From Stackebrandtia albiflava (GTDB lineage Bacteria > Actinomycetota > Actinomycetes > Mycobacteriales > Micromonosporaceae), in the NCBI RefSeq assembly GCF_007994225.1, contig NZ_VLLL01000005.1, forward strand, positions 1,721,142 through 1,785,141: a DNA stretch of 64,000 bases. Direction: 5' to 3'. Of this stretch, positions 6,526 through 64,000 are shown piece by piece. The position numbers and the translations under genes are program-made. The first letter of the stretch is position 1. Each line of letters starts with the position of its first letter. The notes below the pieces were generated by a model, which was not told the origin of the DNA, made no database searches, and was given only the letters and a program-made list of their open reading frames with translations.

Positions 6526-6655
6526 GCGCGTGGCCGGCGCAGGACCGGCTCTGAGACCCGGTGGGGGGTATCGTTCACCTTCACTCCATAGACGCTTGTC
6601 ATCGTTGAGTCTTGACGGCATTTCCGGCCGGATTCCATCACCACCGGCGCGGATC

Positions 6656-7159: not shown

Positions 7160-7334
7160 GGCGGTTTCACCTCGCCGTCCGAAAGGAACGGGCTGTCGCT
7201 TTTCGGGACGTCTTCTCCGAGCGCCATACGGGTACCTCCACCGGCGATCACCAGCTGGCCGGCAGTCGACCATACGCTGCCGGAACGAACGGTTCCCCGA
7301 TCCGTCTTCGCTCTTCTCACACTCGCACCCGGGT

Positions 7335-10300
7335 TCACGGAGAGAAATACTCCCTTCCCTTGGGATGGGCGTGCAGCTTCCCGGACGCGTCGATGTGAAC
7401 CCGCACCTTGGTCATCCACCCTCCATTGGGTCCCGTTCCGATCGGCTTGTTGAACTCGAAGTCCCTGATGTTCGGACGACCGGCTACCGGTGTGCCGTTC
7501 TTCCACGCGAACCACGCATACGCGTCCGCCTCGGCACGTGTCTTGAACGCCGACGTCGGCGTGCCCAGTCGCAGCCGCTGGGCGTACTCGGCCGTCCCGA
7601 CGACGTGCTGGTCCTGCTTCTGCCGGGATATCCCGCTCGGTGTGCATGGAAAGTTCGGAGTCGTGTTGTGTACGAGGATGTCGGTGTCGCCGGCGGCGAC
7701 GTGGTAGGTGTGGAGGTCGTCGACGGTGAGGTTGTGGACGCGGGTGGTGTGGGTGCGGTGGTCGACGGCGGTGACCTGAACCCAGGTGCCGGCGGCGGTG
7801 CGCAGCATGTCGCCGGGGGTGAGGTCTTCGGCGTCGCGCCACTGCCCGTCGTCGGCGACCCAGAAGGGGTGGCCGTCGGTGGCGGTAATGGACGCGTCGC
7901 CGGTTCCGTCGTCGTCGGTGTCGACGGTGACGTCGACAAGGTTCTTCTCGCCGGTGCCCTCGATGAGTCCGGTGACCTCGCGGGCGCCGGTCTCCCCGGT
8001 TTCGGGGTCGGTGGCGACGACCTCGTCGCCCAGTTCGACGTCCTCGATGGGTTTATGTGTCCCGTCGGCCATCAGCACCGGGGTATCGGGGGTGAAACTG
8101 TTGCTCAGGCAGGAGTTGCCGCGTCCGCCGGACTGGCCGGGTTTGGTGCCCATCGGGTCGATCAGGGCGGTGGGCTGGTTGAGGACGTAGGCGTGCAGGT
8201 TGGTGTCGCCGGAGGAGAAACCGATGGGGTCTTCGCTGATGAACCTCTGCAGGCCGGGGCTGTAGTACCTGGCGCGGTACTGGTAGAGGCCGGTGCCGTC
8301 GTCCTCGCGGCCGGTGAACCGGTACGGGTTGGCGCCGTCGTCGCCTTCGGTGGTGGTCTCGCCGAAGGGCTCGTAGGCGTACTCACCGGTGACGGCACCG
8401 GACTGGTCGGCCACGGCGATGGTGGATCCGAGCATGTCGGTCAGGTACGACAACTGTGTCGCACCGGTGTCGCGCAGTAGGTGCTGGTCGAGTCCAGCGG
8501 AGACCTGGGTGGCGATGACGTCGCCTCCGCTGGTCTCGCGCAACGGGTTGAGTCCGTCGTACAGGTACTCCACGGTGGTGCCGTTGACGGTGCGGCTGGA
8601 GCGTTGGCCGTCCGCGCCGTATCCGAAGCTGGCGACCATACCCGGTGCGGTCAGGCCGACCAGTTGGCCGCGGGCGTCCCACTCGTAGGTGGTGGTGCCG
8701 TCGGCGGTGAGGTTGCCGTCGGCGTCGTAGCCGATGGTGGTGCCGTCGATGCCGGTGAGCCGGTTGGCCGCGTCGTAGGTGGCCGGGCCGAATGCGTCCG
8801 GGATGGTCGCCGTCGCCAGGGAACCGGCCACCGACACCGGGCGCCCCGCGGCGTCGGTGACGTACGTCAACTCGCCCAGTGCGCTGCCGCCGGCGGTGTA
8901 GGTGATGCCGGTGACGTCGCCGACCGCGTCGTAGTCGTAGTCCTGGGTGGTGGCGCCGGTGGTCACGACGTCCTGCCGGCCGAGCGCGTCACGGGTGATC
9001 GAGGCGACGGTGGCGCCGCCGCGTTCGGCCGAGACGAACGCCCCGTCGGCGTCGTAGTGGTAGGTGACCACCGGTAGCCCGTCGACGCTGACCGCGCGCC
9101 ACTGCGAGTCGGTCCCGTACTCGTATCCGACCGTGCCCTGCGGCGTGGCGGACACCGTGGTGCGGTCGAGCCCGTCGTACTGGAACGTACTGTCACCGTC
9201 GATGGAGTCCGTGGTGGAGGTGAGCCGGTTCCCGGCGTCGTAGCCGAAGGTGGTGGTGGACTCGGCGGTGGCGCCGTCGACGCCGTAGCGCACCTCGGTC
9301 TTGCGGTCCAGGACGTCGTAGTCGAACTCGGTGACCACGCCGGCCCGGGAGGTGTGCACGGCGAGGTTGCCGTTGCCGTCGTACTCCAGGGTCTCGGTGG
9401 CACCCAGCGGGTCGGTGACCGAGTCGACCCTGCCCATGGCGTCGTACGTGAACACGGTCTGTCCGCCACGCGGATCGACGACCTTCGTGTTGTTACCGAT
9501 GGCGTCGTACTCGTACGAGGTGGTCCGCCCCAACGGGTCGACCACCTCGCTGATCCGGCCGAGTACGTCGTAACCGGTGGTGGTGGTCGCGCCGAGCGGG
9601 TCGGTGACCCGGACGGGACGTCCGGCCGCGTCGAACCCGACACGGGTCGTCTCGCCCGCCGCGTCGGTCGCCGCCACCGGGTCACCCAGCAGATACGTCG
9701 TCGTGGTCGTGTTCCCCGCCGCATCGGTGGTCTCGGTGACCTGACCGTGGCCGTTGACGGCGAACGTCGTGGTGTTCCCCAACGGGTCGGTGATCGCCGA
9801 CAACGCACCGTCGGCCCCGTAGTCGTACTCGGTCACCGCACCGAAGTGATCGGTGTAGGACGACAACTGCCCGAACGGCCCGTCCCGAGGCGACGACTCC
9901 GTCCGCGCCTCCGAGGTACCGGCCAGCACCGTGGTCGACACCACCTCACCGAACTCGTTGTACTCCAACTCCGTACGCCGACCCAGCTCATCCACATACG
10001 CGGTCGGGAGGACACCGGAGTCGTCGCGCTCGATCGTGGTGGTCTGCGCCAGCGACGTCCCGTACCCGAAGGTCTCGGAGGTGGCCTGGCCTTCGGCGTT
10101 GAACGTGTACCGGTCGACGTCGCCTTCGGGATGGGTCACGAGGGTTTCGACGATGGCACCGTCGGCGTTCTCGGTGTAGTCGAAGGTGTAGAGGCCCTCG
10201 TCGACGACGGTCTGTTCGGCGACCCGGCCCTGCGCGTCGTAGACGTTGGTGAGGAACGTGACACCGCGGGCGTCGGTGATGGTGGTCATCAGGCCGTTGG

Positions 10301-13300
10301 CGTCGTACGTGTAACCGGTGACACCGCCGTCCGGGTCGGTGACGCTGATCAGGTGGCCCTGATCGTCATAGTCGTACAGGACGGTACGGCCGAGGCTGTC
10401 TTCCGCCTTGGTGATGACCTGGTCGAAGTTCGGGTCGTCGTAGGAGAACCTGATCCACTTGCCGTTCGGCGACGTGACCTGCGTCACCTTGCCGTGAGAA
10501 CGCAGCCTCCCGTCGGAGTCCGGTGGGATCCACTCCCGCGTGACGGTGACGGTGTTCCCGTAGCGGTCCCGGATCGACTGCAGCGGCGCCTCGTCCCCGA
10601 GGACGTACACGGTGCCGTCTCTGAGTGTGATGTCCCAACCGTGTCCGTTCCAGGCCATGGTCGACCCGGAGAACATCGTCGGTGTCGGATCGGCGGCGAA
10701 CGCGGCGTTGACGAACGATCCCGGCCCCTCCCCCGGCGTGATCCGTTCGTAGTGGACCCTGCTGCCGTCCGGCGCGTAGAGGTCCGCCTCCAGGTAGTCG
10801 AAGTCGTCGATCTCGCCCGGCGACCACGGGAAGTAGTTGTAGGAGAAGTTCATGCCGACCCCGAACGGCCGCACCTCCACGTCGCCCTGCTGGTAGGTGC
10901 GGGTCAGGTCGAGCGGGATCACGTCGTCGAGGAACAGGTCGGTGGACTCGTCCACGAGTAGGCCGGTGGCGACGTCGACCGGGTCGCCCACCTTGACACC
11001 GCCCGGCGCGGGCGACCGCACCGGCGGGTTGATGCCGGGCACGGCGGTCATGGCGCCGGTCAGCCGGTAGAACTCCGTGTCGGCGTCGGGCACGACCTGC
11101 TTCCCGTCACCGGTGACGGTGCCCTTGCCGTAGATGTGCCAGCCCTTGTTCTCCGGGTCGTAGAACCAGAAGTCCATCCGGGTGCCAGGGGCCTGGTCGG
11201 TGTAGTTGGGGTAGACGATCCGGCCGCCGGCGGGGAACAGCGAGCCGCCACCGGGCTGGACGGTGAAGTAGATCGGAACCTGGCTGGCCGGCAGCGGGAA
11301 CGGCGGCCGGTCGATCGGTATCGGCGTGATCGACAGCTCGGTCGCGACGTTCCCGTCACCGTCGCGGACGGTGGTGCCCGCCGGAATGTGCACCTCCAAC
11401 CCCGGGATCGCCGGAGTGGTCAGGACGACGTCCTCGGTGGTGGGCGACTCCACCGTCACGGTGGTCTCGGTGTCCAGTTCCGGCAGGTACACGGGGTGGT
11501 TCATCCGCCGCGTCTCTCCCCGGGAGACGTCGACGCCGATGTCGAACACCCCGTACGAGGCGCCCTCGGCGTCCGCCGTGGAACCGTCCACGTGGACCAC
11601 ACGCCGGCCCGCCGGGACGTCGGTGACGAGGAACCTGCCGAAGGCGTCGGTCCGGACCGTCTCGTTCTCGACCGTGACGGTCACCCCGGCCAACGGGGCA
11701 CCGTTGATCGCGGTGACCTGACCGGATACGGCGGTGACTCCGGCGGGCGCGTCCGGGCCGAGGTCGGCGTCGGTGGCGGGTCCGTAGTCGGTGACCCAGT
11801 CGGCGCCGTCGAGGTGGTCGGTGTCCGGCTGCCAGCCGTCGGGGTCGCGTGTCCGGACCGAGGACGGCGTCTCACCCTCACCGTCCTCCTCCTTCGGGGG
11901 GACACAGTGGGTGGTGAGTTCGGGCAGCACCGCTCCCCATTCGAGCCGCTCGACACGGTCCGGGACCGCCGTCGGTTCCCCCGTTCGGGCGTCGCACGTC
12001 GGAACGACCACGTCTCGGGTCTCGGCGGCGACGGCGGTGGTGGCGACACCGACCGAGACGCCGCCGGTGGCCGCGTAGTCGGGGTCGATCACAATGCGGT
12101 ACGTGCCGTCGCCGGGGAGGGCCGGAACGGGGATCGGTGTCTCTCCGCTGTGGAAGTCGTGGTCGAGTAGCACCGTGCCGTCGGGCGCGATGAGACTGAC
12201 GTAGTAGTACCGGCCGGTGAAGGTCGGCGCGGCGAAGGTCAGCTCGACCGTGTCTCCGGCGACACCCGTGAACTCCACGACACCGTTCTGTCCGGCGCGG
12301 TCCAGTCGCACGGCGACCGGATCACCGTCGACCGTGGCGGTTCCGGCTGCCGACTCGGTGGACAGGTACACGCTCAGCGAGGTGATGTCCGCCAGTGCGG
12401 GGTGGAGGGTGACCCGGTACTCACCGGTCTGGGGAAGTTCCGGCAGGTCGGCGTTGGCGTTGCGCTGGTTCAGGAGCTCCGTACCGTCGGGCGCGGTCAC
12501 CACCACGGAGACGTTCCCGTTGGTGTAGATGTCGTCGGTGCCCAGTGAGAGGCGGTCACCGGCCGCACCGTCGAACGTCAGGTGCACGTTCTGCCACGGA
12601 TGGGCCAGCGGCACGACCGACGGGTCGCCGTCCACCGCGAGGCTTCCGGCTTCGACGTCGGTGGACAGGTGCACAGTGGCGTGGCCGGTGGCCGACCCCG
12701 CCGTCAGCAGCAGGCGGTACGTGCCGTCCAGGGGCAGTTCCGGGATGTCACCCGTGCCGCCGATGGAATCGGTCGCACCGTCCGGGTGGACCAGGGTCGC
12801 GCCGGGCAGGTAATCCGTTCCGTCGTACGACAGGTCGGTGTCGCCGTACCCGAGTCCCAGTCGTTGTCCGGTCTGGCCGGTGAAGTCGATCGCGACCTCG
12901 CGACCGGGCCGGTCGAACTGCGCGACGACACCGGGACCGTCCACCGTCGTCTCGGTCGTGGTACGGCTCGACAGCCACATGGCCGCCGACGCGGGTTGCC
13001 CGTCGACCGTGCCGATGCGGACCCGGTACCTTCCCGCGGACAGTGTCTCGAACGGCAGCGTGTACCGGGGTCCGGCGACGCTCCACGACAACAGGGTGGC
13101 CCCGAACGGCTCGAACACGGTGACGCGGTAGCTGTCGTAGCGGTCCGATTCGGCGTCGAAACCGAAGCTCAGCGCCTGTTCCTCGGTCGCGGTGAAGAAG
13201 AACTCGTTGTGTTGCCCCGCCCGCGTCACCTCGAAGGCGGCGGCGGCACCGTCGACGTCGAGGGTGCCGGTGGCCGTGGTGGACAGGGTCGCGGTCATCG

Positions 13301-16073
13301 AACCGGTGAACAAGGAACCCGCGTCGACGACGACCTGGTACACGCCGTCGGAGGGCAGCGGCTCCATGCCCATGGCCATGTTGCGGCCCGACAACTCCTG
13401 AGGCTTGTCGTATTCGTTCCTGGCGAAGGTGCCACCGTACGGGTTGAACGTGAAGACCTCGGCGTTCAGCCACCGGTCGGCGGTCAAGCCGAGACTGAGC
13501 CGGTCGCCGGCCTCACCTTCGAACCAGAACATCACCGCCCGGCCCGCGGTCGTGAAGGGCAGTTCCACGCCGTCGCCGTCGACGGCCACCCGGCCCGCCG
13601 CGGTCAGTTCCGCAGCGCTGTATCCACGTGGCGCGATGGCGAGGTCGGTGTCGGTGACGGCGACTCCGCCGGGGGTGCGCACGGTGACCGGGCCGGTCAC
13701 GGCGGCCTCCGGGATCTCCACGGTGATGCTGTCCGGGGTGATCGCGGTGATCAGGCCCTGGGTGCGGTGCAGCAGGACGCTCGTGGCCGCCGGGTCGGTG
13801 TCGAACCCGCTGCCGGTGACGGTGATCGAGGCGCCGACGTCGGCCGTCTGGGCGGAGACCCCGGTGATCACCGGTTCGGGGTGGAGTTCACCGAGTACGA
13901 AGTCGTTGGGGCCGTCCGCCGAGACGTCGGATGCGGTGACGGTCACGGGGCCGGTGGCGGCGTCGGCGGGTACGACGACGGTGAGCCGGTTGGCGGTGGC
14001 GGCCGTGACTTCGGCGGCGGCTCCTCCGATGGTGACGGTCTGGCCGGTGGGGTCGGTGGAGAAGCCGGTGCCGGAGACCGTGATCTCGCTGCCGGCCGGT
14101 GCCTGTAGCGGCACCGTCGACAACACCGACAGGTCGCCGGAGTCGTAGGTCTGGGTCGACAACAGGTTGCCGGCGGCGTCGTAGCGGTACCGGGCGGTGA
14201 GTCCGTCGGGCTGCGATATGCCCACGAGTCGACCGGCCGCGTCGTAGATCAGCTCGTGCGGGCCTCGTGTGATGATCGCCGTGGTGGCGTCGACGGTGAA
14301 GGAGCAGTAGTCGCTCCACACTCCGACGGCGTGGTCGTCGACGGTGCGGACCCGCCAACGGTAGGTGCCGTCCGCCAGCTCGGCCGGGGGTGTCCACGAC
14401 TGCGTGGTACCCGTCGCGGCCGGTTCACCGGTGCCCTCGGCGAGGAGAGTCTCGCCCTGGTACAGCTCGTGCTGCAGCGCCCCGGTTCCGTCGGCGTCCG
14501 ATACGGTCGCCGACACGATGGGGCTTCGTGTGTCGACCTGGAGGGCGGTGGTGCCGCAGGGCTGCCCGTTGACCGCGGCGTCGGTGGTGGCGCCGGGAAC
14601 GGTGTTGTACAGCACCTCCAGGGTCGCGGTGGTGTGGTCGTAACGCTTCCACTGCGCGACGGTGGTCTCGTCGACGGCGCGCATGCCGAGACTCACGCTG
14701 TAGTTGCCGCTGTCGGCGGCGGCGGCCACCATGGACGTCACGTCGAAACCCACGTCGCCGTATCCGCCGCAGGTCGCCCCGAAGTTGGCGCCGGTGGTGC
14801 TGGTGGCCTCGTGCCCGAGCCATCCCGGCTGGTTGTTCCAGGTGTGTTCGGGCTTGATCTGGTAGGAACGCTCCACCAGGGCCTCGGCCTCGTAGCCGCT
14901 GCCCGGGCACACCCAGGAGTGCTTCTGCCGGACGGTGAAGTCCGCCGACAGGACCTGGGTGTCGCGGACGCCCTCGGTGTCCAGCCGGTAGTACGTGCGC
15001 ACGGTCGCCGGCTCACTGACGCAGGTCATGCCGGTGGATTCGTCACAGACCATGCCGACTCCGGCGTCGCCGTACGTCGCGGTGTCACCGACCAGGCCGC
15101 CGTCCTGCCAGTAGGAGTCGTCGGGGAAGTTCGACCACACACTCGCCCAGTGCCCCGAACGCGTACCGGCCGTCCAGGTCGGATCGATGGTGACCGGGTA
15201 GACGGTCGAGTCGGCGGTGAGGAGTTCCCGGTCCGGCGTCAGGATCAACGTGCCGTCGTCGACGGTGGTGGCGACCCGCGCGGTGGATGAGGAGACCATC
15301 GGTTCGGCTCCGGGTACGTCCTGTGAATCGGTGACGGTCGCCGCGGAGTCCCACATCCTGGCGGCACCGGTGGCGAGGAACTCCTCGCCGGTATCCGCGT
15401 CCACCACCGTCACGCCCCCACCGGGGTGGACGTCGGCGGTGAGACCGTCCAGAACCAGTCCGAACTCGACCGTGGACAGACTCTCGGCCGCGTCCCGTTC
15501 CCGGACCCGCAGTGCGTGCGAGAAGCCCGACGCGGTCGCGGTAACCGTCAGGTCCACACCGGGCAGGACGTCGGCGTACACCGCCGTCGCGCCGCTCAAC
15601 GTGGGTTCCGGCAACGGTTCCGGCCAGTGCATCTCGAAGCGCCGGCCGGTCGCGGTGACGCTCACCAGTGGTGTGTCACCGCCTTGGGAGAACACCACGG
15701 GCGGCGACGTGTTGCCCGGTACGACCCCGTCGGGGGTGGACCGCAGATCGAGGTCGATCGGCGCCCACTCCCCGTCCGCGTCCCGTGCGCGCACCGGCGT
15801 GACCCGGGTGACCGACCGCATCCGGCCGTCGGGCTGGGCGTAGACCTCACCGTAGGCGGTACGGGAGGCCAGCACCTCGACGTCCCTGCCGCATTCTCGG
15901 GCGATCGCCGCCGCGCCGGCGGCGTCGGCGGCCTCCGATACGCCGGAGGCGCACGCGTCCGGCCGCGCGGACGGCATCGTGGGTTCGTGGAAGGGCAGGG
16001 CCAACAGGCCGGCGACCATGACGAGCACCAGGGCATGGCGCACGACAAGGGAGCCTCGGGCAGACCGGGGCAT
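7335..16073 (-). CDS. Giant secreted RHS/YD-repeat polymorphic toxin with Hint and type-50-like toxin tip
   Basis: 2912 residues. The order by residue is: signal/membrane segment 10-32 (LVVRHALVLVMVAGLLALPF); secretion-associated N-region; DNRLRE-like beta domain about 305-490; fibronectin-like domain about 500-600; one isolated YD repeat about 604-645; two IPT/TIG domains about 655-815; five PPC-like beta-sandwich repeats about 825-1345; carboxypeptidase-regulatory-like domain about 1450-1505; DUF6531-like entry about 1690-1780; an array of YD repeats about 1840-2580; RHS core (RFTGREDDGTGLYQYRARYY) about 2580-2645; Hint protease domain from Cys2655 to HN near 2802; and the toxin tip 2810-2912. 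The tip has KQDQHVVGTAEYAQRL, GTPVAGRPNIRDFEFNKPIG and a closing HIDASGKLHAHP, resembling polymorphic toxin type 50 (predicted RNase). The start at 16073 uses GGAG 6 bp upstream; a TTG at 16085 overlaps that site. Confidence 0.9.
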   Translation of the reverse strand: MPRSARGSLVVRHALVLVMVAGLLALPFHEPTMPSARPDACASGVSEAADAAGAAAIARECGRDVEVLASRTAYGEVYAQPDGRMRSVTRVTPVRARDADGEWAPIDLDLRSTPDGVVPGNTSPPVVFSQGGDTPLVSVTATGRRFEMHWPEPLPEPTLSGATAVYADVLPGVDLTVTATASGFSHALRVRERDAAESLSTVEFGLVLDGLTADVHPGGGVTVVDADTGEEFLATGAARMWDSAATVTDSQDVPGAEPMVSSSTARVATTVDDGTLILTPDRELLTADSTVYPVTIDPTWTAGTRSGHWASVWSNFPDDSYWQDGGLVGDTATYGDAGVGMVCDESTGMTCVSEPATVRTYYRLDTEGVRDTQVLSADFTVRQKHSWVCPGSGYEAEALVERSYQIKPEHTWNNQPGWLGHEATSTTGANFGATCGGYGDVGFDVTSMVAAAADSGNYSVSLGMRAVDETTVAQWKRYDHTTATLEVLYNTVPGATTDAAVNGQPCGTTALQVDTRSPIVSATVSDADGTGALQHELYQGETLLAEGTGEPAATGTTQSWTPPAELADGTYRWRVRTVDDHAVGVWSDYCSFTVDATTAIITRGPHELIYDAAGRLVGISQPDGLTARYRYDAAGNLLSTQTYDSGDLSVLSTVPLQAPAGSEITVSGTGFSTDPTGQTVTIGGAAAEVTAATANRLTVVVPADAATGPVTVTASDVSADGPNDFVLGELHPEPVITGVSAQTADVGASITVTGSGFDTDPAATSVLLHRTQGLITAITPDSITVEIPEAAVTGPVTVRTPGGVAVTDTDLAIAPRGYSAAELTAAGRVAVDGDGVELPFTTAGRAVMFWFEGEAGDRLSLGLTADRWLNAEVFTFNPYGGTFARNEYDKPQELSGRNMAMGMEPLPSDGVYQVVVDAGSLFTGSMTATLSTTATGTLDVDGAAAAFEVTRAGQHNEFFFTATEEQALSFGFDAESDRYDSYRVTVFEPFGATLLSWSVAGPRYTLPFETLSAGRYRVRIGTVDGQPASAAMWLSSRTTTETTVDGPGVVAQFDRPGREVAIDFTGQTGQRLGLGYGDTDLSYDGTDYLPGATLVHPDGATDSIGGTGDIPELPLDGTYRLLLTAGSATGHATVHLSTDVEAGSLAVDGDPSVVPLAHPWQNVHLTFDGAAGDRLSLGTDDIYTNGNVSVVVTAPDGTELLNQRNANADLPELPQTGEYRVTLHPALADITSLSVYLSTESAAGTATVDGDPVAVRLDRAGQNGVVEFTGVAGDTVELTFAAPTFTGRYYYVSLIAPDGTVLLDHDFHSGETPIPVPALPGDGTYRIVIDPDYAATGGVSVGVATTAVAAETRDVVVPTCDARTGEPTAVPDRVERLEWGAVLPELTTHCVPPKEEDGEGETPSSVRTRDPDGWQPDTDHLDGADWVTDYGPATDADLGPDAPAGVTAVSGQVTAINGAPLAGVTVTVENETVRTDAFGRFLVTDVPAGRRVVHVDGSTADAEGASYGVFDIGVDVSRGETRRMNHPVYLPELDTETTVTVESPTTEDVVLTTPAIPGLEVHIPAGTTVRDGDGNVATELSITPIPIDRPPFPLPASQVPIYFTVQPGGGSLFPAGGRIVYPNYTDQAPGTRMDFWFYDPENKGWHIYGKGTVTGDGKQVVPDADTEFYRLTGAMTAVPGINPPVRSPAPGGVKVGDPVDVATGLLVDESTDLFLDDVIPLDLTRTYQQGDVEVRPFGVGMNFSYNYFPWSPGEIDDFDYLEADLYAPDGSRVHYERITPGEGPGSFVNAAFAADPTPTMFSGSTMAWNGHGWDITLRDGTVYVLGDEAPLQSIRDRYGNTVTVTREWIPPDSDGRLRSHGKVTQVTSPNGKWIRFSYDDPNFDQVITKAEDSLGRTVLYDYDDQGHLISVTDPDGGVTGYTYDANGLMTTITDARGVTFLTNVYDAQGRVAEQTVVDEGLYTFDYTENADGAIVETLVTHPEGDVDRYTFNAEGQATSETFGYGTSLAQTTTIERDDSGVLPTAYVDELGRRTELEYNEFGEVVSTTVLAGTSEARTESSPRDGPFGQLSSYTDHFGAVTEYDYGADGALSAITDPLGNTTTFAVNGHGQVTETTDAAGNTTTTTYLLGDPVAATDAAGETTRVGFDAAGRPVRVTDPLGATTTTGYDVLGRISEVVDPLGRTTSYEYDAIGNNTKVVDPRGGQTVFTYDAMGRVDSVTDPLGATETLEYDGNGNLAVHTSRAGVVTEFDYDVLDRKTEVRYGVDGATAESTTTFGYDAGNRLTSTTDSIDGDSTFQYDGLDRTTVSATPQGTVGYEYGTDSQWRAVSVDGLPVVTYHYDADGAFVSAERGGATVASITRDALGRQDVVTTGATTQDYDYDAVGDVTGITYTAGGSALGELTYVTDAAGRPVSVAGSLATATIPDAFGPATYDAANRLTGIDGTTIGYDADGNLTADGTTTYEWDARGQLVGLTAPGMVASFGYGADGQRSSRTVNGTTVEYLYDGLNPLRETSGGDVIATQVSAGLDQHLLRDTGATQLSYLTDMLGSTIAVADQSGAVTGEYAYEPFGETTTEGDDGANPYRFTGREDDGTGLYQYRARYYSPGLQRFISEDPIGFSSGDTNLHAYVLNQPTALIDPMGTKPGQSGGRGNSCLSNSFTPDTPVLMADGTHKPIEDVELGDEVVATDPETGETGAREVTGLIEGTGEKNLVDVTVDTDDDGTGDASITATDGHPFWVADDGQWRDAEDLTPGDMLRTAAGTWVQVTAVDHRTHTTRVHNLTVDDLHTYHVAAGDTDILVHNTTPNFPCTPSGISRQKQDQHVVGTAEYAQRLRLGTPTSAFKTRAEADAYAWFAWKNGTPVAGRPNIRDFEFNKPIGTGPNGGWMTKVRVHIDASGKLHAHPKGREYFSP

Positions 16074-16497
16074 GACGATCTCCAAAATGGGCGTTACATA
16101 TCCGTGTACCTAAACAACTATCAGTAAGCGCGCGTTTTGCCAAGGCCCCCAGGCGAAGTAGCCCCTTAAGTCGACAATGCACCGGTTGGGTGGAATCGGG
16201 CGCTTGGTGGAGTTCGTTGCGGTCCGCCCCGGTCTCGACGGCGTCGGGGCACCCGTCGGAAGGCCCGGAGGACGACGCGACCGACTCCGGCGAAGAACGG
16301 GCGCCGGGCGAAGGACGGGCATCGGGGGACGTCGGTGTTCACCGAGTCGATGTCCGTTCGGCGTGTTCGCCCACCCCGTGGGGTGGGCGAACACCGTGGT
16401 TCGAAAAAATCGCGTGACCATGTCGATTTCGAGGTCTCCCGTTCGACGTGGTGTCGCAGGATCGAACAACACCCACCACACAGACGGGAAGCGACAC
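16074..16497. other. 424-bp intergenic region upstream of the RHS gene
   Basis: No convincing gene. The part nearest the RHS start (16074-16150) is AT-richer than the surroundings and likely holds the RHS promoter. The rest contains a long perfect palindrome at 16363-16394 listed separately. Open frames crossing it in all directions are Arg-rich shadows. Confidence 0.6.
16363..16394. repeat. Near-perfect 32-nt palindrome (15-bp arms)
   Basis: Arms 16363-16377 (GTGTTCGCCCACCCC) and 16380-16394 are exact complements separated by only 2 bases. The site is 104 bp before the RibD-like gene and 290 bp upstream of the RHS start. No T-run follows on either strand, so terminator function is doubtful; it could be a regulatory dyad or a mobile-element footprint. 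Confidence 0.6.
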
Positions 16498-55678: not shown

Positions 55679-55960
55679 CTCACCACCCTGCCAGTCCGCT
55701 CTGCACCGCTGTCGCCGCGCGATCACGCGACTACCCACCATAATCCGTCGCAGCGCCGGGGGAAAGCCGACGAGTTCCGTCGCGGCACGTACAGACGTCA
55801 ATCGATGTGATCATAGCCACGCGCTACGAGGTCGAACGTGGGAGTGGTGCTCCCCGCCCGCCGTCCAGGTGTGGCCGGAAGCCCTGGGGCGCACCGAGAA
55901 CGCACGGAACGGCCGCCGGCCGCCACCGAATCGGCTCCGGCGTTCCGGGACCCCCGCGGC

Positions 55961-55966
55961 TAGAGT
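55961..55966 (+). promoter_or_regulatory. Probable -10 element of a leaderless two-component operon
   Basis: TAGAGT lies 7 bp before the GTG start at 55974. The spacing predicts a transcript beginning at or next to the start codon. Confidence 0.4.
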
Positions 55967-55973
55967 GGCCTGC

Positions 55974-57086
55974 GTGTCCGACCCCCGGCCGATCACCGTC
56001 GCCGCCCGCGGCCTCGCCGGCCTGCTGGCCGGTGCGGCGACGGCGGTGCCTCAACTGTGCGGTCTCGTCGTCACGGCCGTGGTGCCCTCCTCCGGGTGGC
56101 GCCGCCGCACGGTCGAGGCCGGCGCCCGGCTGCACGTGGCCAGGATGCGATGGGCTCGCCCCGGTTGGGAGGCCGGTGCGCCACGCCGCCCGTTGTTGTT
56201 CCTGTGGGTGGTCACCGCGCTGGGACTCATGACGACGGCGATCGTCGTCCTCATCGTGGCCGGGGCGGGCGTGTCGCTGAACGCCGGAGTGAGCTGGGCC
56301 ATGGGCCGCACGATCGACGACATACCTCCGTCTCCGGGCAACATCGCCTATCTGGGGCTGCTGGCGGCGGTGCTGGCGTTCCTGGCGGTACAGGGTCTGG
56401 TGGGGGTGGCGGCCCTGGAGTACCGCGTCGGCGACCGCCTTCTGAACCCACATCCGGACCGGGTGCTGCGGGAACGGATCGACAGCCTGACGTCGAGCCG
56501 GGCGGCCATCGTGGCGGCGGTGGACGCCGAGCGCCGCCGCATCGAACGCGACCTGCACGACGGAGTCCAGCAGCACGTTCTGGCACTGGGGATGCTGATC
56601 GGCCGCGCGCGGCGGCGCGGCGGGACGGACGACCCGGTCCTCGCACAGGCTCAGGAGACCACCGCACGGCTGCTCACCGAACTGCGGCAGGTGAGCTGGC
56701 GGGTGTTCCCCGCCGAGTTGGACGCCGCGGGCCTGGCGGCGGCGCTGGAGGGTCTGCGGGACCGCGCGGCCGTGGACGTGGTGCTGCGTCACCACGCGAC
56801 CGGCGAGCTTCCCGACGCTGTCGAGACGGCCGCGTACTTCCTGGTGAGCGAGGCGGTCACCAATGCGGCGAAGCACTCCGGCGCCGACCGTGTCACGGTC
56901 ACGGTCGACCGCGGTGACGGTGAACTGGTGGTGACGGTGGTCGACGACGGGTGTGGTGGCGCGGATCCGGCGGGCGGCGGCCTGGCCGGGCTGGCGCGCC
57001 GGATCGCGGCGTTGGACGGTGAACTGGTGGTGGACAGCCCGGTGGGGGGTCCCACCACGGTGGTGGGGAGGATCCCGTGCGACTGA
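55974..57086 (+). CDS. NarL/DesK-type sensor histidine kinase
   Basis: 370 residues. There are about three membrane segments (ITVAARGLAGLLAGAATAVP; PLLFLWVVTALGLMTTAIVV; IAYLGLLAAVLAFLAVQGLV). The HisKA_3 phosphoacceptor site is ERRRIERDLHDGVQQHVLAL. The ATPase domain has EAVTNAAKHSGADRVTVTV and VVDDGCGGADPAGGGLAGL. The GTG start fits a leaderless promoter; the longer upstream frame is not protein-like. It overlaps the response-regulator gene by 10 bp, so both form one operon. The signal is unknown. Confidence 0.9.
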   Translation: MSDPRPITVAARGLAGLLAGAATAVPQLCGLVVTAVVPSSGWRRRTVEAGARLHVARMRWARPGWEAGAPRRPLLFLWVVTALGLMTTAIVVLIVAGAGVSLNAGVSWAMGRTIDDIPPSPGNIAYLGLLAAVLAFLAVQGLVGVAALEYRVGDRLLNPHPDRVLRERIDSLTSSRAAIVAAVDAERRRIERDLHDGVQQHVLALGMLIGRARRRGGTDDPVLAQAQETTARLLTELRQVSWRVFPAELDAAGLAAALEGLRDRAAVDVVLRHHATGELPDAVETAAYFLVSEAVTNAAKHSGADRVTVTVDRGDGELVVTVVDDGCGGADPAGGGLAGLARRIAALDGELVVDSPVGGPTTVVGRIPCD

Positions 57087-57736
57087 TGCTGGTGGACGAT
57101 TCGGTGCTGCTGCGGGAGGGCCTGGCCCGCCTGCTCGCCGACGAGGGGCACGAGATCGTGGCGTCGCTGGGCGACACCGAGGGGCTCCCCGACCGGGTCG
57201 CGGCCGTCCGGCCGGACGTGGTGGTCCTCGACGTGCGGATGCCCCCCACTCACACCGACGAGGGACTCCGGGCGGCGACGGCGATCCGGGAGCGACTGCC
57301 CCGGCAACCGGTCATGGTGTTGTCCCAGTACGTCGAGCGGCGGCTGGCCGGCGAACTGCTCGGCGACGACGCGTCCGGTGTCGGTTACCTGCTCAAGGAC
57401 CGGGTGATGCAGGTGGACGACTTCCTCTCCGCCCTGCACCGGGTCGCCGAGGGGGGAAGCGCGCTGGATCCCGAGGTGGTCCGGCGGTTGCTGGACCGCC
57501 GGGCCGACCCGCTGGCCCGGTTGTCCGGACGGGAGCGGGAGGTGTTGGCGTTGATGGCCGAGGGCCACACCAACGCCGGGATCGCCGCCTGCCTGCACGT
57601 GTCGCGAAGCGCGGTGGAGAAGCACGTCGCCTCGGTGTTCGGCAAGCTGGGTCTGTCCCAGGTGGACGGATACAGTAGACGGGTACTCGCGGTGCTGCGG
57701 CACCTGGCGGCCGCCGACTCATCCACGATGGAGTGA
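57077..57736 (+). CDS. NarL/LuxR-family response regulator
   Basis: 219 residues. The receiver domain starts RLMLVDDSVLLREGLARLLA, with the phosphoacceptor in DVVVLDVRMPPTHTDEGL and a conserved Lys in YLLKDRVMQVDDF. The LuxR helix-turn-helix is RLSGREREVLALMAEGHTN then AGIAACLHVSRSAVEKHVAS. The GTG start lies inside the kinase 3' end. It is the output partner of the kinase upstream; targets unknown. Confidence 0.9.
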   Translation: MRLMLVDDSVLLREGLARLLADEGHEIVASLGDTEGLPDRVAAVRPDVVVLDVRMPPTHTDEGLRAATAIRERLPRQPVMVLSQYVERRLAGELLGDDASGVGYLLKDRVMQVDDFLSALHRVAEGGSALDPEVVRRLLDRRADPLARLSGREREVLALMAEGHTNAGIAACLHVSRSAVEKHVASVFGKLGLSQVDGYSRRVLAVLRHLAAADSSTME

Positions 57737-57975: not shown

Positions 57976-58127
57976 CCGCCTTCCGGTTCCTCGACACCGT
58001 CGCCGCACCGGGCACCTCCGGAACGCGGCCGATCCGGTTCCGCCGCCGGGCGACCCGTATCGCGCCACACGGGTGCGCCCGCTCCGACCGGCGTGTCACC
58101 CGGTGCCCGGGCGGAGGCCGCGGATGA
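57972..58127 (+). CDS. 51-residue basic small ORF coupled to the PKS start
   Basis: 51 residues, Arg-rich (FRFLDTVAAPGTSGTRPIRF, then RRRATRIAPHGCARSDRR), no known family. Its start overlaps the micro-ORF stop and its stop overlaps the PKS start (ATGA at 58124-58127). The double overlap suggests translational relay into the PKS gene, but the Arg-rich content could also be chance in GC-rich DNA. Confidence 0.35.
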   Translation: MTAFRFLDTVAAPGTSGTRPIRFRRRATRIAPHGCARSDRRVTRCPGGGRG

Positions 58128-60526
58128 GCCATGAGGACGCCATCGCGATCATCGGCATGTCGGTGCGCCTGCCGGGTGCCGACACCGTCGCCGACTACTG
58201 GCGGGACGCGTTCCACGGCACCGTACACATCAGGCGATTCACCGCCGCGGAGCTGGTGGCGGCCGGCATCCCGCCGGAGGACGCCGCCGATCCCGCGTTC
58301 GTCGCCGCCACCGCGCCGTTGGACGACGTCACCGGTTTCGACGCGGCGGCGTTCGAGATGAGCCCACGCGAGGCCGCGATCACCGACCCGCAACACCGGC
58401 TGTTCCTGGAGGTATGCCGTCACGCGCTGGAGGAGTCCGGCTACTCCGGCGCCGACGGCCGCGTCGCGCTGTACGGCAACACGGGATACCACCTGCATCC
58501 CCTGCAGGGCTACCTGCGCCGGCGACTCGACGGGCGGGTGTTCGACGACGCCTTCCCCTACAACGCGGTCAACGGCCTTCAGGTGGCGTTCGGCAATCAC
58601 ACCGACTTCGTCGCGACCCGGGCGGCGTTCCGGCTCGGGCTGACCGGCCCGGTGATGACCGTCCAGAGTGGTTGCTCAAGCGGCCTGGTGGCCGTACAGG
58701 CCGCCGGACACGCCCTACGTGCCGGCGAGGCCGACCTGGCGGTGGTGGCCACCGCAGCCGTCCACATTCCACAGATCATCGGCCACCGTCACGTACGGGG
58801 TTCCATCCACTCCCGATCCGGCGTGTGCCGGGTGTTCGACGCGGAGTCCGACGGGATGGTGACGGGCAACGGCGCGGCGGCGGTGGTGCTGAAACGGCTC
58901 GACCGCGCGCTCGCCGACGGCGACACCGTCGACGCGGTGATCCTGGCGACCGCCGTCAACAACGACGGCGACCGCAAGTCCGCCTACCCGGCACCGAGCG
59001 TGCCCGGCCAGGTCGAGGCCGTCACCTCGGCCCTCCACGCCGCCGGGGTCTCGGCGGACCGCATCGGCTATGTGGAGGCCCACGGCACGGGCACCTTCAA
59101 GGGCGATCCGATCGAGTTCGACGCGCTCACCGAGGCGTTCCGTCGCCACACCGACCGGATCGGGTACTGCGCGCTCGGTTCGGCGAAGGCGAACATCGGA
59201 CACCTGGACTCCGGTGCCGCGCTTCCCAGCCTGATCCGCGCGGTCGGGGTGGTGAAGAACGGTCTGATACCGCCGCTGGCGGGTCACACCGCGCCCAATC
59301 CGCGTCTGGCGCTGGACGAAAGCCCGTTCTACCTGCCCCGCGAGGTCACGCCCTGGCCGGGACCGGGGCCGCGGCTGGCGGGCGTGACCGCCCTCGCCGT
59401 GGGCGGCACGAACGCGCACCTGGTGTTGTCGTCTCCGCCGCCTCGTCCCCCCAGACGCCCGTCCCGGCTCGCCCCCGGGCCGCTCGTCCTGTCGGCCGCC
59501 GATCCCGCCGGGCTCAGGGCCACGGCGGAGGCGTGGCTCCGACGACTCCGCCGGGTGCCCACACCGGACCCGGCGAGGACGGCGATGACCGCGGCACGGG
59601 GGCGTCGCCACCACGCACACCGACTGGCGATCACCGGACGCACCGTCGCCCGATGGCGGGACGGGCTGGCCGACTATCTCGCCGGCCGGCCCGGCGGCTA
59701 CGTCTGCACGGACGTGACGACGCCGACGACGGTCGACGATCCCCCGGCGACCCGATACGTCGACGACGGCACGACCGACTGGGCGGCCGCCGAGTCGGGA
59801 CGGGAACGGCTGCCGGGATACCCGTTCCGGCGTTCCCGCCACTGGATCGGCCCACCACCACACGAGACACCCGAAACGCACGATCACGATCGAGGAGGAC
59901 ACATGCCGGCCCCGGGCGTACTGACCCACATCCAGGAGGCGACCGCCGCGAGGCTGGGACACCCCGTGGAGGCGGTGGCCCCGTCCGCCACCTTCCTCTC
60001 ACTGGGCGCCGATTCACTGTCCATGGTGGATCTCGCACGTTCCGTCGAGCAACGGTTCGGCGTCAGGATCTCCATGCGGGAACTCTTCGAACAGGGTGAC
60101 ACCCCCGCGGGTCTCGCCGCGCTGGTGGCGGACCGGCTGCCGGAACCGACGCCGACCACCGCCGGGCACGCGGTTCCGGATCCGCAGGCCGCTCCGGCGG
60201 CACCGGCGGCCCAGCCCGCTCCGGCTCCGGCGCAAACGCCCGTACCACCCCCCGTTCCCCCCGCGGCGCCATCGAGCGCTGCGGCTCCGGCCCACCTGCC
60301 GCCGACCGTGCCGCCTCCGGAGGCGTCGGCGCCCGCGTGGCACGCCGCGCCGCCGTATCCGGTGATGCCGTACCAGGTGCCGGTCGCCGATCCCGGATAC
60401 GAGCACCGCACCGTCGCGGCGCTGACCGGTCAGATCCAGCAACTCATCACCATCAACCAGTCGCTGGTGAACCAGGTGGCGCACCTGACCGCCCTGCTGC
60501 ACGCGAGAGACGGCGGCGCCCGATGA
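58124..60526 (+). CDS. AT-less polyketide synthase: ketosynthase plus acyl carrier protein
   Basis: 800 residues. The ketosynthase covers about 4-445 with the complete triad: Cys184 in TVQSGCSSGLVAV, His320 in EAHGTGTFKGDP and His360 in SAKANIGHLDSGA. Residues about 460-575 are a linker ending in LPGYPFRRSRHWIG. That motif normally follows an acyltransferase, yet no acyltransferase domain is present. The carrier protein (about 597-665) has LSLGADSLSMVDLARS with Ser631 as phosphopantetheine site. A long Ala/Pro linker then leads to a C-terminal coiled coil (LTGQIQQLITINQSLVNQVA), probably a docking helix. The stop overlaps the NRPS start. An acyltransferase must be supplied in trans. Confidence 0.88.
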   Translation: MSHEDAIAIIGMSVRLPGADTVADYWRDAFHGTVHIRRFTAAELVAAGIPPEDAADPAFVAATAPLDDVTGFDAAAFEMSPREAAITDPQHRLFLEVCRHALEESGYSGADGRVALYGNTGYHLHPLQGYLRRRLDGRVFDDAFPYNAVNGLQVAFGNHTDFVATRAAFRLGLTGPVMTVQSGCSSGLVAVQAAGHALRAGEADLAVVATAAVHIPQIIGHRHVRGSIHSRSGVCRVFDAESDGMVTGNGAAAVVLKRLDRALADGDTVDAVILATAVNNDGDRKSAYPAPSVPGQVEAVTSALHAAGVSADRIGYVEAHGTGTFKGDPIEFDALTEAFRRHTDRIGYCALGSAKANIGHLDSGAALPSLIRAVGVVKNGLIPPLAGHTAPNPRLALDESPFYLPREVTPWPGPGPRLAGVTALAVGGTNAHLVLSSPPPRPPRRPSRLAPGPLVLSAADPAGLRATAEAWLRRLRRVPTPDPARTAMTAARGRRHHAHRLAITGRTVARWRDGLADYLAGRPGGYVCTDVTTPTTVDDPPATRYVDDGTTDWAAAESGRERLPGYPFRRSRHWIGPPPHETPETHDHDRGGHMPAPGVLTHIQEATAARLGHPVEAVAPSATFLSLGADSLSMVDLARSVEQRFGVRISMRELFEQGDTPAGLAALVADRLPEPTPTTAGHAVPDPQAAPAAPAAQPAPAPAQTPVPPPVPPAAPSSAAAPAHLPPTVPPPEASAPAWHAAPPYPVMPYQVPVADPGYEHRTVAALTGQIQQLITINQSLVNQVAHLTALLHARDGGAR

Positions 60527-63500
60527 CCGCCGTCAACCCGCCACCGGACTTCGGGCTGTACTTCTTCGGGGACTACCCCGGCGGCACCGGTGCCGCCGAC
60601 GCCTACGACACCATGCTCACGGCGGCCCGATTCGCCGACCGGCACGACTTCTCGTCGGTGTGGATACCCGAACGGCACTTCCACTCCTTCGGCGGCATCT
60701 TCCCCAACCCCTCGGTGCTCGCCGCGGCCCTGGCACGCGAGACCCGGAACGTACGGATCAACTCCGGAAGCGTCGTACTCCCGCTGCACGACCCGATCCG
60801 GGTCGCCGAGGAGTGGTCCGTCGTGGACAACCTCTCCGGCGGCCGGGTGGGCATCGGCTGCGCGAGCGGCTGGAACTCCAACGACTTCGTCTTCTACCCC
60901 GACCGGTACGGACGGCACCGGGAACTCATGTACGAGCAGGTCGAGGAGATACGGCGGCTGTGGGCCGGCGCGTCGACCACCCGCACCGGCGGAACCGGAG
61001 AACCCACGACGGTCTCACTGCACCCCCGGCCCGTCCAACGGACCGTGCCGATGTACACCGCCGTGGTGGGACGCCGGGAGTCGTTCGCACTGGCGGCCCG
61101 GCACGACCTGGGCATCGTCACCAACCTGATGACCCAGGACATCGACGCCCTCGCCGACAACATCGCCTACTACCGGGCCGCCCGCGCCGAGGCCGGGCTG
61201 GACCCGGCGGCCGGAACGGTGACCGTGTTGGTGCACACCTACCTGGCCGCGGACGCCAGGCGGGCCCGCGAGGCCGCGTTCGGTCCGCTGACCGGGTACA
61301 TGCGCGCGTCGTTGTCGCTGTTCGGGCAGGTCACCAACAGTCTCGGCTTCAACATCGACCTGGCCGAGGCCGACGAGGACGACCTCACCTACCTGTTCTC
61401 CCGCGCCTACGACCGCTACTGCGACTCGCGCGCCCTCATCGGGTCCCCGGAGTCGTGCGCCGAGACCGTCGCGCGCCTGCGCGACGCCGGTGTCGACGAG
61501 ATCGCCGCCCTGGTCGACTTCGGAATGCCCGCCGACCTGTTGACGGCGGGACTGCCCCACCTCGACGCGCTACGCCGCCGCAGCCTCACCGCCACCGCCT
61601 ACCCGGTCACGCCCGGACAGCGGCGCATGTGGTTCCTCGAACGGCTCTCCCCCGGTGACTCGCAGAACGAACCCAAGGCGATCCGGCTCACCGGCCCCAT
61701 CGACCACGCGGCCCTCCATCGCGCGGTGCGACGGCTCGGAGAACGGCATCCCGGCCTACGCAGCGTGTACCGGGAAGCCGACGGTGACGCGATACGCCTC
61801 GTCCAACCCCATCAGGCGATCCCGGTGGAGGTCGGCGACCACACCGGACAGGACGAGGCGACCGTGGTCGCGGACGTGATCCGGCAGGAGAGTCACCACC
61901 GGTTCGACCTGGCCGAAGGCCCGCTGTTCCGGATACGGCTCCTCCGGCTGGCACCCGAACACCACGTGCTGGTGTTCTCCCTCCACCACATCACCGTGGA
62001 CGCGGCCTCGGCCACGATCCTCACGCGTGACCTGTCGGAGCTGTACCGGGCCGAACTCGCCGGACGGACCCCACGGCTGCCCATGCTGCCCCGACGCCCC
62101 GCGACGCCGGTCGCCGAGACCGACGCCGGCCTCGCGTACTGGGTCGAACGGCTCGGCGGTGAACCACCGGTACTGCGCCTGCCCGCCGACCGTCCCCGGC
62201 CGGCGGTGCAGACCTTCGCCGGCCGTGCCCGCTTCGACCGGCTCGACGCCGAGGCCACCGCCGCCCTGGTCCGGCTCGGCACCGACAACGGCGCGACACT
62301 GTTCATGACACTGCTGACCGGACTGGCCGCGACGATCCACCGGATGTCGGGACAGGACGACATGATCGTCGGCGTTCCGGTCTCACAGCGGTCGCCGGGA
62401 CAGCGGGACGTCGTGGACTTCCTGGTGAACACGCTGCCGCTGCGGTTCGACACCTCCGGCGACCCGACGTTCGGTGAGTTGCTCGGGCGGGTGCGATCCG
62501 TCACGCTCGACGGTCTCGACCACGCGACCGTACCCTTCGAGACCGTCGTCGCCGCCGTCTCACCGCCGCGCGACACCTCACGGACCCCGGTCTTCCAGAT
62601 CATGGCGGAGTTCAAGCCGGGCGAGGCGTTCACCCTGGACCTCCCCGGGGTCGTGGCCACACCGTTGGACGCCGGACGGGACGTGTCGGTCACCGACATG
62701 TCGCTGCACCTGCTCCATCGCGACGGCGAGGTGGTCGTCCACCTGGAGTACAACACCGACCTGTTCGACGACGCGACCGCCGCCCGGTTCTCACGGCTGT
62801 TCCTCGCCGTCCTGGCCACCGCCGGACGTCGCCCGGCCGCCCGGTTGTCGGAGCTGCCGTACGGCGACGACACCGACCGGGACCTGAACCAACGGTGGGG
62901 AACCGGCCCGGCCGCCAACGACACCGGAACGGTCGTGGACGCGATCGAGGCCCACGCCGCCGACGCCCCGTCGGCGGTGGCGATCGTGGACGAGGACGGG
63001 GAACTCGACTACGCCGGGCTGGTCGCGGGCGCCCACCGCATCGCCGCCGCGCTACGGGCGGCGGGAATCGGACGGGACGACGTGGTCGCCACCTGGCTGC
63101 CCCGCGACCGGCGCGCTCCCGTGACCTGGTTGGGCGTCATGCGAAGCGGCGCGGCCTACCTGCCGCTGGACCCCGCACTGGGAACCGCGCGGGTGGCGAC
63201 GGTCCTCGCCGACAGCCGGGCCGCCGCCGTGCTGACCACCCGGGAGCTGTCCGAGTCGCTCCCCTCGGGACACGACGTCCCGGTGCTCGTACTGGACACG
63301 TCGCCCGGCCTCGCGGAGGACACACCATCGCCACCGGTCGAGGACGACGCGGCCTACGTCGTCTACACGTCCGGGTCGTCCGGCCGGCCCAAGGGTGTGG
63401 TCATCGGGCACCACGGCCTGACCGGACTGTGCGGTTGGTTCGGGCGGCGATTCCGGTTCGGGCGTGCGGGCCGTGCCGCCGCGGTGTGCGGTCAGAGCTT

Positions 63501-64000
63501 CGACGCGTCGGTCGTGGAGCTGTGGCCCACGCTGTACGGGGGCGGGAGTGTGGCGATCGCCCCCGAGGAGGTCCGCCGGGACCCGGCGGCGCTGGCGGCC
63601 TGGTGTGACAGGACCGGTGTGCGCTTCACGCTGTTGCCGACAGGTCTGGGCGAGGCCGTGCTGGAACTGCCGGCAGACCGCCGGCCGAGTCTGTCGGTGC
63701 TCATGATCGGTGGTGACGTCCTGCGGCGGCGCCCCGCCGCCGACGTCCCGTTCGAGGTCGTCAACGCCTACGGCCCCACGGAGGGCACGGTACTGGTCAC
63801 GACCCACCCCGTCTCGGCGGACGGGCCCGCCCGGATCCCGATCGGATCACCGATCGACGGCGCCGTGTTGAGGGTCTGCGACGCGGAGGGGCGGCCCCGC
63901 CCGGTGGGCGCGGTCGGCGAACTGCGTATCGGAGGCCGGCCACCCGCGAAGGGCTACCTGCACGATCCCGGCCTGACGGCGGAACGCTTCGTCGAGGACG
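60523..64000 (+). CDS. NRPS with N-terminal luciferase-like monooxygenase, condensation and adenylation domains (3' end outside window)
   Basis: At least 1159 residues; the frame is open to the window end. Residues about 8-335 are a MupA/Atu3671-type FMN monooxygenase: FGLYFFGDYPGGTGAADAYD, SVWIPERHFHSFGGIFPNPS, LPLHDPIRVAEEWSVVDNLS and VGIGCASGWNSNDFVF. The condensation domain (about 357-775) starts YPVTPGQRRMWFLERLSPG and has the active site SLHHITVDA (His489, Asp493). The adenylation domain starts near 805: A3 is VVYTSGSSGRPKGVV, A4 FDASVVELW and A5 NAYGPTEGTV. Aligned by eye to GrsA the specificity residues read D-A-V-T-M-G-A-V-L, which I cannot assign. ATGA overlap with the PKS gene shows one operon. 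Confidence 0.9.
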   Translation, partial: MTAVNPPPDFGLYFFGDYPGGTGAADAYDTMLTAARFADRHDFSSVWIPERHFHSFGGIFPNPSVLAAALARETRNVRINSGSVVLPLHDPIRVAEEWSVVDNLSGGRVGIGCASGWNSNDFVFYPDRYGRHRELMYEQVEEIRRLWAGASTTRTGGTGEPTTVSLHPRPVQRTVPMYTAVVGRRESFALAARHDLGIVTNLMTQDIDALADNIAYYRAARAEAGLDPAAGTVTVLVHTYLAADARRAREAAFGPLTGYMRASLSLFGQVTNSLGFNIDLAEADEDDLTYLFSRAYDRYCDSRALIGSPESCAETVARLRDAGVDEIAALVDFGMPADLLTAGLPHLDALRRRSLTATAYPVTPGQRRMWFLERLSPGDSQNEPKAIRLTGPIDHAALHRAVRRLGERHPGLRSVYREADGDAIRLVQPHQAIPVEVGDHTGQDEATVVADVIRQESHHRFDLAEGPLFRIRLLRLAPEHHVLVFSLHHITVDAASATILTRDLSELYRAELAGRTPRLPMLPRRPATPVAETDAGLAYWVERLGGEPPVLRLPADRPRPAVQTFAGRARFDRLDAEATAALVRLGTDNGATLFMTLLTGLAATIHRMSGQDDMIVGVPVSQRSPGQRDVVDFLVNTLPLRFDTSGDPTFGELLGRVRSVTLDGLDHATVPFETVVAAVSPPRDTSRTPVFQIMAEFKPGEAFTLDLPGVVATPLDAGRDVSVTDMSLHLLHRDGEVVVHLEYNTDLFDDATAARFSRLFLAVLATAGRRPAARLSELPYGDDTDRDLNQRWGTGPAANDTGTVVDAIEAHAADAPSAVAIVDEDGELDYAGLVAGAHRIAAALRAAGIGRDDVVATWLPRDRRAPVTWLGVMRSGAAYLPLDPALGTARVATVLADSRAAAVLTTRELSESLPSGHDVPVLVLDTSPGLAEDTPSPPVEDDAAYVVYTSGSSGRPKGVVIGHHGLTGLCGWFGRRFRFGRAGRAAAVCGQSFDASVVELWPTLYGGGSVAIAPEEVRRDPAALAAWCDRTGVRFTLLPTGLGEAVLELPADRRPSLSVLMIGGDVLRRRPAADVPFEVVNAYGPTEGTVLVTTHPVSADGPARIPIGSPIDGAVLRVCDAEGRPRPVGAVGELRIGGRPPAKGYLHDPGLTAERFVED

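Follow-up and report, generated by a model that had tools for sequence, protein, structure and literature searches.

At the right end of a 64,000-nucleotide stretch of the Stackebrandtia albiflava genome (the window; G000:C1:1721142-1785141 of a 5.55-Mb genome, G000, in 13 contigs, 98% complete) lie two genes on the forward strand that appear to encode a hybrid polyketide synthase (PKS)-nonribosomal peptide synthetase (NRPS) line. The first gene (58124..60526) encodes an 800-aa protein consisting of a ketosynthase (KS), a linker, and an acyl carrier protein (ACP) domain, with no acyltransferase (AT). The second gene (60523..64000 in the window) starts with an ATG in an ATGA overlap with the first frame at 60523 and encodes an 1801-aa NRPS with the order LLM-C-A-T-C [MupA/Atu3671 FMN monooxygenase (LLM), condensation (C), adenylation (A), thiolation (T), and C domains]. 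It extends 1928 bases beyond the window to G000:C1:1787069 (window-equivalent 65928), which adds the T and the second C domains. Hereafter, the two genes are called the AT-less pair, and other genomes and loci are referred to by G and L numbers.

The KS domain (58136..59431; aa 5-436, a boundary set in this analysis) matched Pfam with 175 and 110 bits; Pfam also matched its C-terminal extension and, further on, a carrier domain, while Acyl_transf_1 was not matched in this protein at E 0.001. We aligned 13 rows, 11 of which are shown (L031 and L066 are cut there, and their C-terminal ends were not judged). The alignment contained GCSSGL, EAHGTGT, and KANIGH, with the C-H-H residues present, as well as GADSLS in the ACP (59930..60127; GADSL with the carrier Ser). 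A remnant of the KS-AT linker matching PF22621 (59483..59650, aa 454-509) follows the KS, after which the AT is missing. Where relatives hold ca. 300 AT residues, a short linker precedes the post-AT linker motif YPFRRSRHWIG (59819..59851). After a Pro/Ala linker, a coiled-coil-like stretch (60407..60502; seen by eye in the alignment) ends the protein; similar stretches were found in L025, L061, L026, L028, L029, L032, L036, and L044, and this part may have a docking or dimer role. The preliminary description of this DNA had the coordinates and domains right, including the intact KS triad, the carrier Ser, the missing AT with its post-AT motif kept, and the Pro/Ala linker; the final coiled coil that it gave is visible by eye only, and our structure model stops at residue 675. 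In its way of working, as a KS-ACP module without a cis AT, the protein belongs with the trans-AT PKSs.

The LLM domain (60550..61575) matched TIGR04020 with 444.7 bits over the full model (1-341; curated cut-off, 244.45), and its best solved match was PuwE (372 bits over 330 residues), other solved chains reaching at most 92.3 bits. It is followed by the first C domain (61594..62874; motif HHITVDA) and the A domain (62947..64000, with a Pfam core to ca. 63960 and its C-terminal part past the window). The A-domain code was DAVLMGAVL. The preliminary description had named the same order of monooxygenase and C domain, whereas its code, DAVTMGAVL, was one position off: in the motif alignment position 278 is L and T is position 277, in what we take to be the GrsA numbering. 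In the terminal C domain the motif HHAVCDG is kept; of the solved chains, the nearest was 4znm ('C-domain type II peptide synthetase', 124.5 bits), which we take to be SgcC5, a free-standing enzyme joining a carrier-bound acid to a free partner. As a lead only, this suggests that a free nucleophile may accept the released chain. Since neither PKS nor NRPS was found among the nine downstream open reading frames (ORFs) scanned, two genes make up the line. The locus had been regarded as the start of a cluster; once the NRPS was followed past the window, the line proved complete with these two genes.

TIGR04020 matches at E 1e-90 were found in three of five genomes of the genus that were searched, and all three carry the AT-less pair. 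The two other genomes are G002, placed in the genus of the window genome, and G003, whose locus is L061. G002 and L025, the locus in the nearest named relative, Candidatus Stackebrandtia excrementipullorum, are taken as one genome on the strength of their equal domain maps. The recurrence of the same pair in two other genomes of the genus indicates that it did not arise by chance. The earlier proposal that the AT-less KS-ACP protein feeds an LLM-C-A NRPS is supported. G000 and G002 have a common neighbourhood (a GGDEF gene on the left; prephenate dehydrogenase, hydrolase, and radical SAM genes on the right), and the 20-kb stretch of G003 has only the pair in common. The KS-ACP identity among the three genomes was 61-67% over 774-789 codons. 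The ratios of nonsynonymous to synonymous substitution (dN/dS; Nei-Gojobori) for the three KS-ACP pairs were 0.29, 0.32, and 0.20, which are rough values, since dS was 1.0-1.3; the NRPS gave 0.32 (G000-G002 pair only).

These values bear on the possibility that the pair is a decaying remnant, from which AT, aminotransferase, and transporter were lost as the pathway no longer works. The absence of AT and aminotransferase, the failure to find a major facilitator superfamily (MFS) gene nearby in G000, and the relative L106, in which both domains have visibly decayed, would agree with such a course. However, in three species no damage was seen in the motifs examined in KS, ACP, and C, the two genes read through without interruption for 2.4 and 5.4 kb, and dN/dS stays at 0.20-0.32. 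Decay is therefore unlikely.

The preliminary description had called for a search for a stand-alone AT and had named an AT in the same operon as evidence against its view. No AT was found in the operon, and Acyl_transf_1 at E 0.001 matched only two places in the whole of G000, C1:518897 and C5:29958. The AT at C5:29958 adjoins ACP and FabF genes, and its best NCBIfam match was FabD; it was the only stand-alone AT found. The search for a dedicated trans AT of the cluster thus gave none in the operon and, in the whole genome, FabD and one multidomain AT. The latter (C1:518897) lies inside a 2.1-kilo-residue protein of a second LLM cluster (G000:C1:512307-525034), composed of an MFS gene, FAAL-KS-AT, ACP-LLM-C-A-T, and a separate C; the first ACP, after FAAL, was recognized by eye. 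This AT (FAAL-KS-AT, G000:C1:518720-525034) might malonylate the ACP of the AT-less pair in trans, being the sole other AT found in G000 and keeping GHSVGE, and G003 has the same cluster (L062). On the other hand, it is embedded in a multidomain protein, and G002 carries the AT-less pair with no second cluster found. The one LLM match in G002 at E 1e-90 lies in the pair itself, so that the AT of the second cluster is not present to serve there. We consider this donor improbable. In the open-licence literature, no report of the combination of an AT-less module with FabD was found.

To place the pair among its relatives, we used 21 loci from a genome scan with the KS-ACP protein (L025, one Actinocrispum locus, and 19 Streptomycetaceae loci) and loci from genome searches. 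TIGR04020 matched at E 1e-120 or better in 27 of 121 genomes drawn from the taxonomic family of the window; of the 32 places listed in that family, 20 were mapped, 10 were covered otherwise (the window genome and regions already included), and those of G070 and G130 were left out. The loci were selected by likeness to the query or the LLM model, and their frequencies are not natural ones. The set of 39 loci with a KS row (hereafter the KS family) comprised 20 of the 21 scan loci, 18 loci from the genome searches, and the window; L045 (KS in two pieces), the outgroups L067-L069, and the second L043 piece were left out.

The majority of the scan loci on long enough contigs have the order MFS, KS-AT-ACP, and aminotransferase-LLM-C-(A)-T-C. 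In the KS tree, the trio of G000, L025, and L061 formed a clade (100/99) nested among AT-bearing relatives, and its neighbour was the KS-AT-ACP-LLM-C-A-T-C line of G010 (98/94), which has an AT and no aminotransferase. The trio was again a clade in the LLM tree (100/96), where it was not joined with G010. Solved chains named 'AT-less polyketide synthase' match the KS by sequence, and the tree contained no classical trans-AT KS.

The AT was surveyed by its GHSxG motif downstream of the KS; a phmmer AT reference had missed the intact AT of L098 (GHSAGE). The motif was present in 34 of the 39 loci and absent from five: the window, L025, L061, L031, and L106. L031 (Actinocrispum) has a shortened AT that reads GHGAGE, and the AT of L106 (G059) is eroded, with no GHSxG and no AT match by Pfam. 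The KS and ACP matches are 164 residues apart in L025, 168 in L061, 293 in L031, and 281 in L106, and 407-591 residues apart in the remaining members with both on one frame (L043 measured from its second KS piece). The fused aminotransferase of L106 reads HGETL at the place where YGK stands in the other 27 of the 28 loci in which this domain was matched. At this locus (G059:C13:414000-433999, 5387-14517), the eroded AT and the shortened aminotransferase without the PLP lysine are still part of the line. Parsimony on the KS tree gave three AT changes. In the approximately unbiased (AU) test, a single AT loss was rejected for the trio and L031 (p 0.0071) and for the trio, L106, and L031 together (p 0.00028), and was not rejected for the trio and L106 (p 0.299). 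Because a single origin for the latter two was not rejected, we claim two rather than three as the minimum: the AT has been lost independently at least twice in this family. With 74 AT matches in the Actinocrispum genome and five in G059, there are several candidate AT donors for L031 and L106.

A fused aminotransferase was matched in 27 of the 39 loci, L106 included. Ten lack it (the window, L025, L061, L062, L064, L066, L096, L098, L107, and the second cluster of the window genome), and the contigs of L038 and L042 end too early to judge. The aminotransferase-bearing KSs fall on one side of a branch with a support of only 49/17, and the domain may have been lost from the window's branch or never been there. 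An aminotransferase acting in trans might still aminate the chain and give a 3-amino-2-hydroxy acyl head as in puwainaphycin, and the occurrence of a fused aminotransferase match in 27 of the 37 family loci on contigs long enough to judge, one of them (L106) without the lysine, would speak for it. However, with the L031 domain as query, none of the genomes G000, G002, and G003 yielded an aminotransferase close to the fused one; the top hit in each had 35-37% identity and 131-144 bits (G000, 37% and 131 bits). Intact fused aminotransferases score 584-792 bits (L045, in two pieces, 327 and 257) with the L026 query, a rough yardstick as the queries differ. Amination in trans is very unlikely.

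Two further arrangements were observed in these loci. An M18 aminopeptidase gene directly follows the NRPS gene in five of the 21 scan loci (L026, L027, L028, L030, and L034; by Pfam for L028 and L030) and is a possible self-resistance gene. Such a role would fit a product of the bestatin/amastatin type, which inhibits aminopeptidases. In addition, the LLM lies inside the adenylation domain (A-LLM-A) in L067, L068 (G038), L069 (G028), L097 (G076), and L109 (G113), an arrangement like that of myxothiazol MtaG.

The domain order, the catalytic motifs, the gene overlap, the conservation in three genomes, and the nesting in an AT-bearing family can be read from the DNA, and from them we infer the chemistry as follows. 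FabD, or less likely another AT, would malonylate the ACP in trans, and the KS, primed with an acyl thioester, would make a beta-ketoacyl-ACP. Using O2 and FMNH2 supplied by a cellular reductase, the LLM domain would then hydroxylate the alpha carbon. Since no aminotransferase and no ketoreductase was matched in the line, the simplest assumption is that a 2-hydroxy-3-oxoacyl intermediate reaches the first C domain, which would couple it to a hydrophobic amino acid loaded on T by the A domain. The terminal C domain would free the chain, with an amine or alcohol in solution as the most likely acceptor. The preliminary description had the product hydroxylated or cleaved on the ACP and then condensed with an amino acid. 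This is the most likely course, with hydroxylation favoured because PuwE is the best solved relative and MupA alpha-hydroxylates a beta-ketoacyl-ACP. Cleavage keeps some probability because the excerpt of a palmerolide paper (PMC8739492) refers to related enzymes that shorten the chain in the calyculin and mandelalide pathways.

Alternatively, the KS might merely transfer an acyl chain to the ACP without extension, in which case neither malonyl nor an AT would be needed, as an operon without an AT and a loading domain might suggest. Nevertheless, the KS has its active-site cysteine and its two histidines, and MupA requires a beta-keto group on the chain according to the available text of PMC10952193. 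Transfer without extension is thus quite improbable. We consider it probable, judging from sequence, that the pair encodes a complete two-gene PKS-NRPS line without a cis AT and an aminotransferase, which is fed by FabD and makes an alpha-hydroxylated acyl amino acid.

Several points weigh against this conclusion. FabD is named as the donor by elimination only, an argument weakened by the 13 contigs and 98% completeness of G000. Its match to TIGR00128 (175.6 bits) is below the curated cut-off of 260.9, and G002 and G003 have four AT places each. The line has no loading domain. The KS and LLM trees do not place the same relative next to the trio. For the KS-ACP protein (aa 1-675), the structure model had a mean pLDDT of 56.7; built on only 9 aligned sequences, it is too poor for a fold search. 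Furthermore, an MFS gene directly precedes the pair in L025 and L061, whereas a tblastn search with the L025 MFS protein, covering the window from position 40001 onward and the adjoining sequence up to C1:1837999, returned a single match, at E 0.33. With no MFS counterpart nearby in G000, export or function could be impaired.

The LLM domain and its place between PKS and NRPS are known already, and so is the loading of an ACP ahead of an NRPS by an AT on another protein. What is most interesting about this locus is that AT loss recurs within a family whose members mostly bear the domain. In our view, the origin of AT-less PKS modules is usually deduced from deep trees; here, intact, mutated, eroded, and cleanly excised ATs stand side by side in one family, and the change becomes testable on small proteins. 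It is possible, although doubtful, that a single-module cis-AT PKS family repeatedly becomes AT-less and is served by FabD, and that in the window's branch, where the aminotransferase is absent too, this has led to a two-gene line to uncharacterised 2-hydroxy-3-oxoacyl amino acids (amide, ester, or hydroxylated tetramate). If FabD does serve the ACP, a minimal PKS module needs no AT of its own and can leave this task to primary metabolism. With only two genes for the predicted product, an amino acid carrying an alpha-hydroxylated beta-ketoacyl chain, the chemistry would be easy to rebuild, and the pair would be a compact system for the study of LLM domains.

Directly upstream of the pair, a histidine kinase and a LuxR-type response regulator are encoded (55869..57736, forward strand). 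They had no match in L025 or L061 and are therefore probably outside the conserved unit. Downstream of the NRPS gene come first a YbaB-like ORF, whose match is below the Pfam cut-off, and two small ORFs that matched nothing in Pfam. The ORFs after these include genes for prephenate dehydrogenase, an alpha/beta hydrolase, and a protein with a tRNA-editing domain, and one that matches radical SAM weakly. The YbaB-like and two small ORFs (G000:C1:1787185-1789010), between the NRPS and prephenate dehydrogenase genes, have no L025 match at that place. Far from the pair, the reverse strand (7338-16085) carries an ORF of 2916 aa that contains a pretoxin HINT domain as well as RHS repeats.

The preliminary description had named a close match to a characterised cluster as evidence against its view; among the open-licence papers listed, neither a characterised actinobacterial cluster of this shape nor a report of the two-gene form was found. 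The closest known systems include Streptomyces loci with MFS, KS-AT-ACP, and aminotransferase-LLM-C-(A)-T-C, for which no report was found among the same papers. They show 48-56% identity in the best KS-ACP segment, the same gene order, and a similar C-terminal stretch, but unlike the window's line they keep the AT and the aminotransferase.

In PuwE-type lines, the monooxygenase domain likewise has a minimal PKS module before it and a C-A-T module after it, and the LLM followed by C-A-T is found in the window's line as well. Unlike them, the window's line has no aminotransferase (PuwE-type lines have one of class III, fused between ACP and LLM), AT, or FAAL, has one amino acid module, and ends in a C domain. 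The microginin pathway also includes a monooxygenase. The excerpt of PMC12250027 names KS, AT, ACP, an aminotransferase, and a 3-amino-2-hydroxy acid for microginin, and in the available parts of PMC4219810 and PMC13252402 aminotransferase and monooxygenase domains are proposed to make the 3-amino-2-hydroxy acyl groups of puwainaphycin and of floridanemamide/tychonamide.

In mycosubtilin biosynthesis, the separate AT FenF loads malonyl on the ACP ahead of the NRPS (from the excerpt of PMC3039948; this FenF work is cited in that of PMC11260071). The AT gene is the first ORF of the mycosubtilin/iturin operon, whereas the window's operon has none. MycA carries an acyl-CoA ligase and an aminotransferase, both of which the window's line lacks. 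The two marks of the MycA/FenF iturin type, an acyl ligase domain for loading and an AT encoded by its own gene within the operon, are thus absent.

MupA, the namesake of the LLM family, is a separate protein. In the mupirocin bimodule it acts on a beta-ketoacyl-ACP in a trans-AT system, and in vitro, with an FMN reductase, it alpha-hydroxylated only a beta-ketoacyl chain on its own ACP (available text of PMC10952193). Hydroxylation by a TIGR04020-like domain is also proposed in the excerpt of the palmerolide paper (PMC8739492). In mupirocin, ketoreduction and PKS steps follow the hydroxylation, whereas in the window's line the hydroxylated chain would pass to an NRPS.

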